A DNA stretch of 52,785 bases from Nitrospinae bacterium CG11_big_fil_rev_8_21_14_0_20_45_15 (GCA_002787235.1 PCWG01000035.1:165109-217893); one strand, 5' to 3'. Shown: positions 38,791-44,239, numbered from the stretch's first letter. Notes: a model not told the origin generated them from the sequence alone. Numbers and translations are program-made.

Positions 38791-39364
38791 TGAATCGATC
38801 CCAAAAATATTGTTAGAAAAACGTTATCGGGCATGATCACCCTCAAATCAGAAACTTTACTCATAAGAAAGGATTCCGCACTGCTTTTTTCTTTCGGGTC
38901 ACTCACTATAAGACTAGATTCCATTTATTCTACTATGAAAAGGCCCTGTGTCCCAAACATCCTTGCCATAAATAAATCTAGCCCAGACGATGCCAGAAGT
39001 CAGAAAATTCCAGGTTACAAAATAAAATAAATTTTTATCATTTTTTTTAACTTTTCTATTGCCAGACAGATATTAAAGCCTTAACCTTGAAGAAGGCTCT
39101 TATATATTAGAAGGTTTACATTTCCATTGAAATCCAGGATGTTATTCTATATAATCCCTTAATTTATAGTATTTTACATGAATTTCTCAACAAATATGAA
39201 ATCCTCCAAATTCAATCCTTCGGGAAATATTTGAAGGTAGCTACCATTATTCTTTGAGAGAGTAAAAATATACAACTTTGATCAGTTTAGGTAAATATCT
39301 GCGGTCACAAAGATTTTTAGACCGTAAAGTTATTGTTAATTTTAATCTTATGGAGGAAGTATTC
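38791..39364. other. 574-bp AT-rich intergenic region
   Basis: The region separates the hydroxylase gene (minus) from the small secreted protein gene (plus). It is very AT-rich. It contains a minor 6-bp stem (AGCCTT...AAGGCT near 39073-39095). No convincing protein gene, tRNA or consensus promoter was seen. An in-frame ATA-rich extension upstream of 39365 is not protein-like. The region is long enough to hold promoters for both genes. Confidence 0.4.
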
Positions 39365-39610
39365 ATGAAAAGAATTCTTTTATTAACAGTTTGCGCCTTG
39401 GCAATGGCCTTATGCGCAACTCCAGCTTTTGCGGCAGATTGCGCGGCTGAAATCGCCGCTCTGACGGCAACCGTTGCGGGTGTGACCGATGCCAGTCTCG
39501 CTTATGAATTGAACTACATGCTGGCTCAGGCGACCAATTTGTGCGGTCAAGGGGATGAAGCAGGAGCAATGAGCATCGTATCCCAAGTAAAAGGCCTCCT
39601 GGGTAACTAA
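39365..39610 (+). CDS. small secreted protein, 81 aa
   Basis: The frame opens at 39278, but the ATG at 39365 is preceded by GGAGG (39352-39356) and begins a perfect signal peptide (MKRILLLTVCALAMALCATPAFA). The mature part is about 58 residues, Ala-rich and helical, with two cysteines (AADCAAEI and TNLCGQGDE), suggesting a disulfide-linked helical hairpin. It ends in a short amphipathic segment (SIVSQVKGLLGN). No family recognised. It lies 67 bp before the large PKD/HYR protein in the same direction. Confidence 0.82.
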   Translation: MKRILLLTVCALAMALCATPAFAADCAAEIAALTATVAGVTDASLAYELNYMLAQATNLCGQGDEAGAMSIVSQVKGLLGN

Positions 39611-39677
39611 AAAAGATTTTGACTCATTAAATTAAAGAATTACTCATTATAAAGAAATAAAGGAGAGGGACAATTAA

Positions 39678-42236
39678 ATGAAACGAACATTAACTTATAA
39701 AAGTGTTTTGGCCGGAGTGTTGGCCTTGGCGTTTTTGTCGATCATGACATCAGACGTCCTGGCCTCGCATTTTCGCGGCGGACACATCACTTGGCAACGT
39801 GTTAGCGGAAACACGGTCGATATCACAATCAAACAATACTGGCGTTGTTGTCCATCCGGGGTTAGCCTTGGAGACGGCACGAACATAGGTGCCGGATCTC
39901 TGATTTTCTCTGGAACCGATTTGAGCGGGGAAGCTGTAGAAATTTATGATCAAACAGTCCGCCATACATACGCAACGGCTGGCCCATACACCATACAACT
40001 TCAACCCGGATGTTGCCGAATCAGTACGCTACAAAATTCACACGATTCTAATTGGAGTGTACAGACCATCCTTGATTTGAGAAACGGTCAACAAGGTTCT
40101 TCGGTTTCCTCTTTGCCTCCTATTCTTCAGGTCGCTAAAGGTCCCAACTCAATCAATCTGGTCGTCGCCGATCCGGACAGTTCCGCCATCACCTGTCGAC
40201 AGGCAACAACGGCTGAGTCTTCTATCACCAGTCCTGTAGGTACGGGTGGCTCACTCGCTGATGTTACCTCCAGTTGTATTTTGAACTGGGATGCCACTAA
40301 TTTTGCAGACAAATCCAAACATGCATTGCAGGTGGCCATCTTCGAAGGCGGTTTGCGAACCTCTTTGGATGTCATCCTGGAAGTCAATGGCGGCCTCGTG
40401 AATAACGATCCACCAACGTGTAATTTGAATGGACCGGCAAACAGCACGGTACCCGTGGGACAAGCTTTCTCGATTTCTGCAACCGGTACCGATCCAGAAG
40501 GCGGCAACCTGACAATAAATCATTTGGGTCTGCCACCGGGTGCGACTCTGAGCCCTGCAACGGGTTCCAGCGTGGCCTCCCCTGCAACGGGAACTGTTAA
40601 CTGGACACCAGCCAGCTCTGGAACGTTTGCAGTAACCCTCACGTTCACGGACAATGGCAACCAAACTTGTCAAACATCATTTGCTGTTACCGTACCCGCT
40701 AACCAACCTCCTGTTGCAAACGCTGGCGCAAGCCAAACGGTTGAGCAAGAGGGTCCTGCAGGTTCTAACGTAACCTTGAACGGAACCGCCTCTTCTGATG
40801 CAGATGGCGATCCATTGACCTACAGCTGGACCGGGCCTTTCGGAACAGCCTCTGGTGCAACACCTACTGTTTTGATGCCTGCTGGAACGAACAACGTAAC
40901 GTTGGTAGTCAACGACGGTACCGTTAATTCCGCTCCTGCAACAACAAGCGTTACCGTACAAGACACGATTGCTCCTGTTGTAACCGCTCCGGCGGATGTA
41001 ACAGCTGAAGCGACCGGCCCACAAACGGCAGTAGCAATTGGTACCGCTACAGCTACCGATGCGGTTGGCGTTGTTTCTATCTCAAGTGATGCTCCTGCAG
41101 ACTACACCGCAAGCACCACGACAGTTGTCACCTGGACGGCTTGTGATGCGGCGGGCAATTGTGGAACCGCTACACAAAACGTCACCATCGTTGATACGAC
41201 TGCTCCAGTTGTAACCGCTCCGGCGGATGTAACGGTTGAAGCAACCGGTCCACAAACGGCAGTGGCTATCGGTTCCGCTACGGCGACCGATGCGGTTGGC
41301 GTTGTTTCTACCGTTAATGATGCTCCTGCAGACTACACCGCAAGCACCACAACGGTTGTCACCTGGACGGCTTGTGATGCGGCGGGCAATTGTGGAACCG
41401 CTACACAAAATGTAACGGTACAAGACACAACAGCTCCTGTCATCACAGCTCCGGCTGATATCACCACAGCGGCTACGGGTCCATTGACACCCGTCAGCAC
41501 TGGAACGGCGACAGCAACTGATGCGGTTGGCGTTGCTTCTATCACCAGCGATCAACCTGCTGGCTTCCCGGTAGACGCTACCACTGTTGTGACATGGACG
41601 GCTTGTGACGCGGCGGGCAACTGCTCCTCTGCAACACAAAACGTTACAATCGATCCTTTCGTTCTTGACCTGACTGTCACCAAAGCCAAGTTGAAATTGC
41701 ATCACGATGGCGATAAGGACAAAGACAAGGATAAAGACAATGACCGTGGTCCGAAAGACTGGATGCAAGTTTCCGGTACGTTCAGCGAATTTGCTAACGG
41801 CGACGGCTTGAACTTCACTTCCGAGACTGTGATCATCACCATTGATGGTTTGAGCTGGACCCTTCCTGCAGGTTCCTTCGTTGCCAGAACATCTGACCAC
41901 GACAAGGATAAGGATTCGGACGGCAAAACGACATGGAAGTACAAAGGTCCGAAATCGGGTCTGAGTGAAGTCACGTTTGATTCCAATGGCAAGTTCAAGA
42001 TCAAAGTAAAACGAATGGATCTCAGTGCTATTCCTTTTGGTGTAGCGCAACCTTTGACGATCCGAATCGGTAATGATCTTGGCGAAACCACTGTCACCTT
42101 TAACACCGGTCGTGGGCATGATGGCGACAAGGATAAAGACAAGGACAGAGGCAAGAGCAAAGCAAAAAAAGCACCTGCTAAAGCAAAAAAAGCACCTGCA
42201 AAAGCAAAAGCACCTGCTAAAGCAGTAAAGAAGTAA
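39678..42236 (+). CDS. large secreted PKD/HYR adhesin-like protein, 852 aa
   Basis: A signal peptide (1-29, ending SDVLA) is followed by an unknown N-terminal domain (30-235, with SHFRGGHITWQ and a CC pair), an Ig-like/cadherin-like region (about 245-340), a PKD domain (about 345-428) and three HYR repeats of 77 residues (about 429-659). Each HYR carries TAPADVTxxATGP ... VVTWTACDAAGNC. An Asp-Lys tract (near 675-690), a beta domain shared with the gene at 43211, a second Asp-Lys tract and a Lys-Ala-Pro tail (KAPAKAKKAPAKAKAPAK) end the protein. No membrane anchor or sorting motif is seen, so it is probably exported to the surface or matrix. Shine-Dalgarno AGGAGAGG precedes the ATG. Confidence 0.88.
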   Translation: MKRTLTYKSVLAGVLALAFLSIMTSDVLASHFRGGHITWQRVSGNTVDITIKQYWRCCPSGVSLGDGTNIGAGSLIFSGTDLSGEAVEIYDQTVRHTYATAGPYTIQLQPGCCRISTLQNSHDSNWSVQTILDLRNGQQGSSVSSLPPILQVAKGPNSINLVVADPDSSAITCRQATTAESSITSPVGTGGSLADVTSSCILNWDATNFADKSKHALQVAIFEGGLRTSLDVILEVNGGLVNNDPPTCNLNGPANSTVPVGQAFSISATGTDPEGGNLTINHLGLPPGATLSPATGSSVASPATGTVNWTPASSGTFAVTLTFTDNGNQTCQTSFAVTVPANQPPVANAGASQTVEQEGPAGSNVTLNGTASSDADGDPLTYSWTGPFGTASGATPTVLMPAGTNNVTLVVNDGTVNSAPATTSVTVQDTIAPVVTAPADVTAEATGPQTAVAIGTATATDAVGVVSISSDAPADYTASTTTVVTWTACDAAGNCGTATQNVTIVDTTAPVVTAPADVTVEATGPQTAVAIGSATATDAVGVVSTVNDAPADYTASTTTVVTWTACDAAGNCGTATQNVTVQDTTAPVITAPADITTAATGPLTPVSTGTATATDAVGVASITSDQPAGFPVDATTVVTWTACDAAGNCSSATQNVTIDPFVLDLTVTKAKLKLHHDGDKDKDKDKDNDRGPKDWMQVSGTFSEFANGDGLNFTSETVIITIDGLSWTLPAGSFVARTSDHDKDKDSDGKTTWKYKGPKSGLSEVTFDSNGKFKIKVKRMDLSAIPFGVAQPLTIRIGNDLGETTVTFNTGRGHDGDKDKDKDRGKSKAKKAPAKAKKAPAKAKAPAKAVKK
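40962..41654 (+). repeat. three 231-bp tandem HYR-encoding units
   Basis: Units begin near 40962, 41193 and 41424, each 231 bp (77 codons). Units 1 and 2 are nearly identical at the DNA level; unit 3 has diverged. They encode in-frame HYR domains, so unequal crossing-over could change the repeat number. Confidence 0.85.
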
Positions 42237-42243
42237 TCTGGAA

Positions 42244-42326
42244 TCAGGCCTTTGGGAAGTTTTCCTAAAGGCCTGAAGCTGTAAAAATTGATGGGAGGGA
42301 CGGAATTCCGTCTCTCCCATTTTTTA
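42244..42326 (+). terminator. two successive hairpins, the second a terminator
   Basis: The first hairpin pairs TCAGGCCTTT (42244-42253) with AAAGGCCTGA (42267-42276). The second pairs 42291-42303 (ATGGGAGGGACGG) with 42308-42320 around the loop AATT, with one G-U pair, and is followed by TTTTTTATT. The second is a good intrinsic terminator for the adhesin gene. The first may be a 3' protecting stem. Confidence 0.85.
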
Positions 42327-42357
42327 TTAACGTTCAAAAGTTAGCTGGGGAAATTGA

Positions 42358-43089
42358 ATGCGGTTGACCTTGGTTGTTCTAGCGATATTTTCGTTTTCTG
42401 CTTTCCCCACTCCCATTCATGCCGGAACCTTTGCGTCATTTGATTCTATTCTTGTAAGGTTTGCCCTGTCTGCCCCCTCTCCGAATCTTCCGGAAGGTAT
42501 TACCCAAAATTCTGCAGGCGTGACCATCCGTTTTCACCATCAAACACTGGAAGCAGTCCTGCAAAAAATTTCCAATCAAACAGGCATCAAATTTCATTTA
42601 AACTACCCAGTCTCTGAAACACCGATCCAGATCGATATCACCGCTCCTGACTGGCGTCAGGCCATCAATGCACTTCTGGGTAATCAAAGCCGATTGGAGT
42701 TCTGGACAGGTGATCCATCCACCAGCAAGTTTTGGTTGATGGAGGGAAGTCTGTACGATGTGGAGAGCGTGAAAAAATTCAATAAACGCGAAGAAACGGT
42801 CTCGGCTAGCGGGAAAAATCGCCCGGCGAATCCAAATAAAGTGCCGGCAGATGCCACTCAAAAAACGATGTCAATTCTCCCGCCACATATTCTTTTTGAT
42901 CCGGGTCTCTTACTGTATCTGAAATCGGTGGGAATTGCATTACCGATAGAATTTCAAATGAGATTCGAACCGGTGCTGGAAGGATTGCCAGAGGACTACC
43001 CTATTTCTCAACTCGTTTTATCGGACCCGCAATTCAAGACATTCATCGAATATCTGGAATCCATTGGAATTGAGCCTCCAAAAAGCTAA
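42358..43089 (+). CDS. secreted protein with STN-like domain, 243 aa
   Basis: Signal peptide 1-22 (LTLVVLAIFSFSAFPTPIHAG). Residues about 54-125 (GVTIRFHHQTLEAVLQKISNQTG ... DITAPDWRQAINALLGNQ) match the short N-terminal STN pattern of secretins and TonB-dependent receptors, a beta-alpha-beta signalling or docking fold. Two similar C-terminal segments (LYLKSVGIALPIEF and FIEYLESIGIEPPKS) end the protein. No secretin or receptor barrel follows, so it is a free-standing STN protein. It lies after the adhesin terminator and before the adhesin paralogue, all on the plus strand, and may help export or assembly, which is inference. Confidence 0.75.
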   Translation: MRLTLVVLAIFSFSAFPTPIHAGTFASFDSILVRFALSAPSPNLPEGITQNSAGVTIRFHHQTLEAVLQKISNQTGIKFHLNYPVSETPIQIDITAPDWRQAINALLGNQSRLEFWTGDPSTSKFWLMEGSLYDVESVKKFNKREETVSASGKNRPANPNKVPADATQKTMSILPPHILFDPGLLLYLKSVGIALPIEFQMRFEPVLEGLPEDYPISQLVLSDPQFKTFIEYLESIGIEPPKS

Positions 43090-43210
43090 ACTAGAATGCA
43101 TTCACGCCATTAAAAAATGCGCGGAAAAGATTTGAAGCCACTCATTTTACCAGAACTTTTTAAATAACTTTACCTCGCGTGACTTGTTTTCCGGTCGCCA
43201 CCCTATAGAT

Positions 43211-44239
43211 ATGCTAAAGCAAATTTTAATATTCCTGTTCGGTTGCACGCTGATGCAAAATAATGCCTTGGCCCAAGCATCTGTATTGCAGGCAAATGCC
43301 GGGCCAGACCTCGTACTGGAGCAGGAAAGCAGAGGTGGAGCCCAAGTCACTCTGAAAGGTTATGTGGAGCTGTCACCGAATTCTCCTCTAACGAATCCCG
43401 AAAACCTGGTTTATATCTGGCAGGGTCCTTTTGGTTCCGTTAAAGGCCAATCTCCCACGGTGATCCTGCCTGCGGGAGTCAACGAAATTTCCCTTGTGGT
43501 GAAAAACGGTGAGATAACATCGTCTCCTGACAAGGCAATCATCACCGTTCAAGATACCGTAGCACCTCGAATATTCATTCCGCCCAATCCAGTGATTTTT
43601 TTTGCCAGCGGACCTAAAGTTCCACTTGTACTCAATAAACCCGCAGTAAGAGACCGTGTGGGGCCGGTAAGGGTGAGCCGCGATGGGCCAAAGGATTTCC
43701 TGCCTGTCGATTCGACCACAGTCATCACTTGGACTGCTATGGATGCGGCAGGTAACCAAAGCTCTGCGACTCAGAAGTTGATCGTTCTCCCTTTTGAGTC
43801 CATCCTCCATGTCCATAGTGTATCGCCGGTCTCTTTCCCTGAGCAAAACGCAGAGAAAAGCGATCTGTTCCATTCACCTACGGAGACAATTTTTCTAAAA
43901 ATAACGGGACAATTTATCACGACCGGCGCAACCGATGGAATCGACATCACTCGTGAAGTGGTAACGGTTGTATTCGGGGAAAATAAAGAAACATTAGCTT
44001 CCGGGTCATTCGTCTCAGCCACTACAAAAGATTCCTATATCTACAAAAGTGAAAACAAGGGAATCCGGGAGATACTATTTCAGGAGGACGGTTCTTTTAC
44101 ACTCTTTGCCGAAGGTTGGGTAGAGGAAGGAAGAAAAGAACCTAAAGTAAAATTCTTTTCTTTTAAAATCGGCAACGACCGAGGTGAGGCCTACTTGCCT
44201 CTGGATAAAAATTGTTCACTGGAATCCCACAGACATTGA
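43211..44239 (+). CDS. secreted PKD/HYR protein, shorter paralogue of the adhesin, 342 aa
   Basis: The frame opens at 43184, but the ATG at 43211 begins a signal peptide (LKQILIFLFGCTLMQNNALA). It has one PKD domain (about 25-115, with IWQGPFGSVKGQSPTVILPAG matching the adhesin's TGPFGTASGATPTVLMPAG), one degenerate HYR domain (about 116-200, VITWTAMDAAGNQSSATQK, its Cys pair lost), and the same C-terminal beta domain (VVTVVFGENKETLASGSFV ... FKIGNDRGEAYL). It lacks the Asp-Lys tracts and the Lys-Ala tail. It is probably a partner or older duplicate of the 852-residue protein. Confidence 0.82.
   Translation: MLKQILIFLFGCTLMQNNALAQASVLQANAGPDLVLEQESRGGAQVTLKGYVELSPNSPLTNPENLVYIWQGPFGSVKGQSPTVILPAGVNEISLVVKNGEITSSPDKAIITVQDTVAPRIFIPPNPVIFFASGPKVPLVLNKPAVRDRVGPVRVSRDGPKDFLPVDSTTVITWTAMDAAGNQSSATQKLIVLPFESILHVHSVSPVSFPEQNAEKSDLFHSPTETIFLKITGQFITTGATDGIDITREVVTVVFGENKETLASGSFVSATTKDSYIYKSENKGIREILFQEDGSFTLFAEGWVEEGRKEPKVKFFSFKIGNDRGEAYLPLDKNCSLESHRH

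Follow-up and report, generated by a model that had tools for sequence, protein, structure and literature searches.

A free STN/N0-domain protein family of the Nitrospinota, paired with exported repeat proteins and linked to type II secretion genes in relatives

Why should a free-standing STN domain be encoded between two PKD/HYR surface-type proteins? The question is raised by a 52,785-nt stretch of DNA from Nitrospinae bacterium CG11_big_fil_rev_8_21_14_0_20_45_15 (PCWG01000035.1:165109–217893; hereafter the window, contig C32 of a 3.37-Mb, 97 %-complete genome), in which we confirmed four consecutive plus-strand open reading frames (ORFs) at positions 39365–44239. Their products are a small two-cysteine protein (gene 1), a large PKD/HYR protein (gene 2), a free STN-like protein (gene 3) and a PKD/HYR paralogue of gene 2 (gene 4) (Table 1), and on inspection each starts with a signal peptide of the Sec type; signal peptides on all four had been noted in the original prediction. 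It had further proposed that the STN protein docks the adhesins in a surface or matrix assembly system. Our analysis points instead to export: gene 3 appears to belong to a family of free STN/N0 proteins of the periplasm, each helping the type II secretion system (T2SS) or another secretin machine with a substrate of its own, a reading that we favour but rate as slightly short of probable.

The domain identity of gene 3 comes from profile comparison. The Pfam STN model missed the protein at the reporting threshold (E value 0.58 in the genome scan), its best and only Pfam match being FecR_C (E value 0.23); the best family member reached an E value of 0.0011 against STN. Using hhalign, the family profile matched the N0 domain of PilQ (93 %, E value 2.7e-7) and, against three secretin N0 domains of the same genome, returned 87 %. 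Matches of the protein to PDB profiles were weak, with three PilQs among them. The AlphaFold2 (AF2) model places strands (E) and helices (H) in the order E47–51, E54–62, H64–75, E77–80, E90–96, H99–107, E114–117 and E126–128, followed by a helical tail; this agrees with the beta-alpha-beta-beta-alpha-beta STN/N0 fold, albeit in a model of low confidence (mean predicted local distance difference test score, pLDDT, 62), and a Foldseek search with the whole model returned no significant match, PilQ N0 ranking tenth (E value 1.3). The profile comparison supports the free STN-like domain of the original prediction, as a predicted STN/secretin-N0 domain at residues ~46–130 with a two-part helical tail at ~165–243 (LPPHILxDPxxxxYLKxxGI...LSDPQFxxF...GIxPP). 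Pfam detected neither a secretin core domain (PF00263) nor a receptor barrel, and no lipobox or outer-membrane anchor was seen. The possibility that the protein is a detached N0 of GspD was rejected: the GspD proteins of genomes G000, G014, G029 and G030 all retain their own N0 (PF21305), so the STN protein is not a split piece.

The family was matched in 43 of the 64 genomes of the order (E value ≤1e-6), with up to six copies per genome; relatives with a protein of the gene 3 type are Nitrospinaceae/Nitrospina metagenome-assembled genomes, and within the phylum but outside the order only G055 and G059 matched. Other phyla were covered by a peptide-pattern scan only (pattern from an 8-row alignment; a 16-row alignment had no conserved stretch), which returned Nitrospinota alone. 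Five further STN matches lie in the window's own genome, on contigs C38, C35, C7 and C12 and, as a tail fragment, at the beginning of C2. The module common to family members is the STN domain. The tail of the window type consists of a two-part conserved motif (LPPHIL-x-P...YL..G...P / YPI....LNDP.F..FL...G...P), in place of which G016, G027 and G043 have HEAT repeats and G039 has a signal-peptidase S26 domain, an unusual fusion (L097:5949–6770 on its contig C55; Pfam E value 5e-26). Separately, an STN-family gene adjoins a short TonB C-terminal-domain protein (Pfam E value 3e-15) on C38 (L013:7604–9018) and in G002 (L063), an arrangement thus kept in two genomes.

Is the neighbourhood conserved along with the domain? 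Co-occurrence in relatives, which the original prediction had offered as its test, was borne out for STN genes with surface-type proteins; the exact four-gene set, by contrast, is restricted to the genus, and the small cysteine protein occurs in only three genomes, the window's own included. One sister genome, G002, has the exact order in two pieces on separate contigs: the small cysteine and PKD/HYR genes stand at the end of C141 (L124), and C37 (L064) carries the end of the PKD/HYR gene, the STN gene, a gene 4 orthologue and an ankyrin gene. The order is rearranged in G001, a single-contig genome: the small cysteine and PKD/HYR genes lie together, the STN gene is transcribed divergently, and next comes a PKD protein of another kind, 270 aa long. 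A second small–HYR–STN–HYR locus is possible in the window's genome, since on C12 the end of a PKD/HYR-type C-terminal domain (reverse frame, left edge) is followed by an STN gene and then a nidogen/HYR protein, and a PKD/HYR gene, with a 140-aa exported protein before it, runs off the end of C15; we can only infer this locus, because no exact contig-end overlaps join C12, C15, C31 and C19. All four contigs end inside HYR-type repeat genes, and the number and length of those proteins in the assembly are therefore uncertain.

The conserved unit is a free STN gene with an exported repeat protein of unrelated type. Partners include PKD/HYR (G016, G027 and G043), thrombospondin-3 (TSP3; C7), collagen/beta-roll (C35, G001, G043 and G034), collagen with beta-helix (G027 and G039), collagen-TIG (G005) and FG-GAP proteins (G059). 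Scored by a simple signal-peptide and repeat measure, 13 of 49 adjacent co-directional genes encode exported repeat proteins, compared with 0 of 236 controls taken three or more genes away (Fisher p 2.6e-11, a value that overstates independence because the loci are related). The variety of partner types is a stronger argument for pairing than the p-value.

The link to secretion comes from relatives. Of the 36 genomes with both genes, 11 have an STN-family gene no more than 10 kb from GspG (0.45 expected); after collapsing, this holds for 4 of 11 genera. In G014 and G029 the STN gene directly precedes GspC, an order repeated on contigs of G013 and G032; in G009, G023 and G030 STN is near GspC, with a cytochrome-c-like protein and a radical SAM gene between the two. 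The arrangement in G016 and G027 runs, on one strand, STN-HEAT, a PKD/HYR protein and GspC-E-F-G-H-I-J. These are the only two genomes where a PKD/HYR protein adjoins T2SS genes, and that of G016 aligns to gene 2 over the PKD and HYR repeats (44 % identity). Among genomes at least 90 % complete, the presence of STN follows that of GspG: 21 have both, 1 has STN only, 5 have GspG only and 4 have neither (Fisher p 0.017). The window's own genome encodes a complete-looking T2SS operon on C37 (GspC-E-F-G-H-I-J, then K-, L- and M-like genes and a GspD that retains its N0); Pfam T2SSC missed its GspC, and the GspC-like proteins were found by similarity to loci L087 and L100. Two oddities of these systems were observed in passing: Nitrospinaceae GspC and GspI (L087, L100) end in repeated ‘ISG’ motifs (HISGR, PRISGN, NISGF), and GspD (L154:3324–5864, L152, L158) differs from the textbook form in its lipobox-like N-terminus and in a weak match to bacterial SH3 ahead of N0.

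The ‘four-gene cluster’ is probably not one simple operon, given the strong terminator-like hairpin between genes 2 and 3 (~−25 kcal/mol), which is conserved in G002. Similar hairpins separate an exported repeat gene from STN in five other pairs (L014, L015, L068 and twice in L070), and hairpins are enriched before STN genes (7/14 versus 19/143, p 0.0024), suggesting either limited read-through, with little STN protein made per surface protein, or a separate STN promoter. A terminator-like hairpin likewise stands between the PKD/HYR gene and GspC in both G016 and G027, so that arrangement is adjacency and not proof of co-transcription.

How might such a protein work? Each STN protein would be encoded with the exported repeat protein that it serves. 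The gene 2 and gene 4 proteins would cross the inner membrane via Sec and fold in the periplasm, where the variable C-terminal module of the STN protein (the helical tail here, HEAT repeats elsewhere) may hold its cognate substrate. The STN/N0 domain would then dock on the periplasmic vestibule of the secretin/GspC type; the vestibule is the normal place of N0–N0 and N0–GspC contacts. The substrate would finally be released through the outer membrane to work as an adhesin or matrix protein. A bolder version, in which modular Nitrospinota N0 adaptors, one per surface protein, plug into the vestibule so that the substrate specificity of a single T2SS can be exchanged, we consider doubtful.

Several observations weigh against a dedicated T2SS accessory. 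By hhalign, the STN profile resembles PilQ N0 more than GspD N0, and the secretin concerned may thus be that of a type IV pilus or of the MSHA type. The AF2 model of gene 3, besides its low confidence, is of a single chain. None of the six STN copies in the window's genome is near the T2SS operon, and STN matches occur without a detected GspG in G043 and in the 95 %-complete G007. Some STN genes have no exported repeat neighbour: the C38 copy adjoins the TonB_C protein, and that of one g5/g8 clade adjoins a cytochrome-c-like protein and a radical SAM gene. Terminators split the exported gene from STN at several loci, so co-transcription is not assured, and the linkage and pairing counts come from related genomes and represent fewer independent events than their numbers imply.

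The alternative that survives best, although we think it unlikely, is that the STN protein forms part of the secretin of the T2SS or type IV pilus, as a structural subunit akin to a pilotin or scaffold and with no substrate specificity, and that the copies beside surface genes are paralogues left by neighbourhood duplication. The position directly upstream of GspC fits this, as does the precedent of VirB7-XAC2622 and DotD, free N0 proteins that are parts of outer-membrane complexes (PMC3093366). A structural part is harder to reconcile with divergent copies, as many as six in one genome, that adjoin unrelated exported proteins, with a T2SS operon in the window's genome that has no STN gene, and with genomes such as G004 and G018 that have GspG and no STN match.

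We find it quite improbable that the STN and PKD/HYR proteins form an extracellular or outer-membrane surface or matrix complex with STN as its docking module. Adjacency and the signal peptides of all four genes would suit such a complex; linkage to the T2SS points to a role in the periplasm, the side of the outer membrane on which known STN/N0 domains act, and the gene 3 protein shows neither a lipobox nor an outer-membrane anchor. Because of the T2SS linkage, export across the outer membrane is favoured over a cell-surface dock or matrix scaffold; the docking idea of the original prediction thus survives in part, recast as that of an export factor.

A little less probable again is that there is no functional link, the four being signal-peptide genes of a variable surface-gene island brought together by chance. 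The terminator between genes 2 and 3 and the restriction of the exact order to the genus would be expected of such an island, whereas repeated pairing with unrelated exported proteins in different genera, and STN genes found time and again at T2SS loci, would not. Lastly, cell-surface signalling, in which STN would bind a FecR-type anti-sigma factor and couple surface state to gene expression, was suggested by the FecR_C match and by the binding of FecR by STN domains of FecA/PupA-type receptors, and was rejected as very improbable since the genome's two FecR genes (C17 and C21) lie apart from every STN copy and the protein has no receptor barrel.

Table 1. Positions of the four genes and associated signals in the window
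Feature	Position	Strand	Basis or remark
Sigma-70-like promoter candidate, TTGAAA-17-TATAAT	39127..39155	+	5′ of gene 1; consensus scan, 11/12 matches, not functional evidence alone
Gene 1, small exported two-cysteine protein, 81 aa	39365..39610	+	ORF and orthologues; Shine–Dalgarno (SD) GGAGGA
Gene 2, surface-type protein, 852 aa	39678..42236	+	Pfam, G001 orthologue; SD AAGGAGAGGG
Intrinsic-terminator-like hairpin, strong	42290..42321	+	Between genes 2 and 3; 14-bp stem and T-run
Gene 3, exported free STN/secretin-N0 protein, 243 aa	42358..43089	+	hhalign to PilQ N0, AF2 model, family
Gene 4, exported PKD + HYR + C-terminal-domain paralogue of gene 2, 342 aa	43211..44239	+	BLASTP, orthologue L064:1231–2253, AF2

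Gene 1 has orthologues in G001 (39 %) and G002 (83 %), each immediately 5′ of the gene 2 orthologue. Gene 2 encodes, in order, a signal peptide, an N-terminal ‘SHFRGGxITW’ domain, a PKD domain (PKD_4, E value 3e-7), three HYR domains (E value 1e-8), a C-terminal beta domain and a lysine-rich C-terminus; its G001 orthologue shares 47 % over the N-terminal part. The start of gene 4 is probably the tabulated ATG, judging from the matching ATG of its orthologue, and not the TTG at 43184 to which the ORF extends. Pfam gave gene 4 a sub-threshold HYR match (E value 7e-4) and no PKD match; BLASTP aligned it to gene 2 over PKD and HYR (41 %, E value 5e-38) and over HYR and the C-terminal domain (33 %, E value 2e-28). 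The shared layout, including the common C-terminal domain described by the original prediction, is therefore real. The AF2 model of gene 4 is all-beta, and its Foldseek matches are multi-domain immunoglobulin/cadherin-like proteins. No autotransporter or YadA C-terminal barrel anchor was found by Pfam in the STN-paired surface proteins scanned. A lysine-rich tail (e.g. KKGKK at the C-terminus) ends the long HYR proteins (window 42160–42233; L069, L150, L151, L161 and L019) and is possibly a retention or sorting signal; a general sorting signal was discarded, as gene 4 has no such tail.

The closest known relative of gene 3 is the secretin N0/STN domain itself (PF07660; GspD N0, PF21305; PilQ N0), the same domain by profile comparison, with agreeing strand/helix order in the low-confidence model, although here it is free-standing and exported. 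VirB7-XAC2622 and DotD are likewise small free N0 proteins outside secretins that serve outer-membrane transport; both are lipoproteins that belong to the outer-membrane complexes of type IV secretion (PMC3093366), whereas gene 3 has no apparent lipobox, carries an extra tail and is linked to the T2SS and surface proteins. Secretin N-terminal modules also occur as separate polypeptides in mitochondrial GspDN1-3 (PMC8134430) and rhizobial RhcC1 (PMC4500985); the GspDN proteins are N1–N3-like and the mitochondrial GspD has lost its N domains, whereas GspD is intact here and the free domain is N0-like and multicopy. The LipA/LipH lipase–foldase pair offers a parallel for a T2SS substrate with a dedicated periplasmic helper acting before export (PMC13381987); LipH is a membrane-anchored foldase, whereas gene 3 looks soluble and carries STN, with no homology shown between them. 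Our literature search, which covered few subscription journals, turned up no paper linking STN proteins to adhesins or HYR proteins to the T2SS. It likewise yielded neither a description of a Nitrospina T2SS nor a paper chiefly about type II secretion in Nitrospina, nothing on adhesins of the Nitrospinaceae, and no account of free STN proteins that are paired with surface proteins or have their genes at T2SS operons.

How the T2SS recognizes folded substrates is a long-standing open question. If the export reading is true, a family of free N0-like proteins whose genes accompany both unrelated exported proteins and T2SS operons would offer testable candidates for dedicated substrate adaptors. 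Such a family would also open a way into the surface biology of the Nitrospinota, which are major marine nitrite oxidisers.

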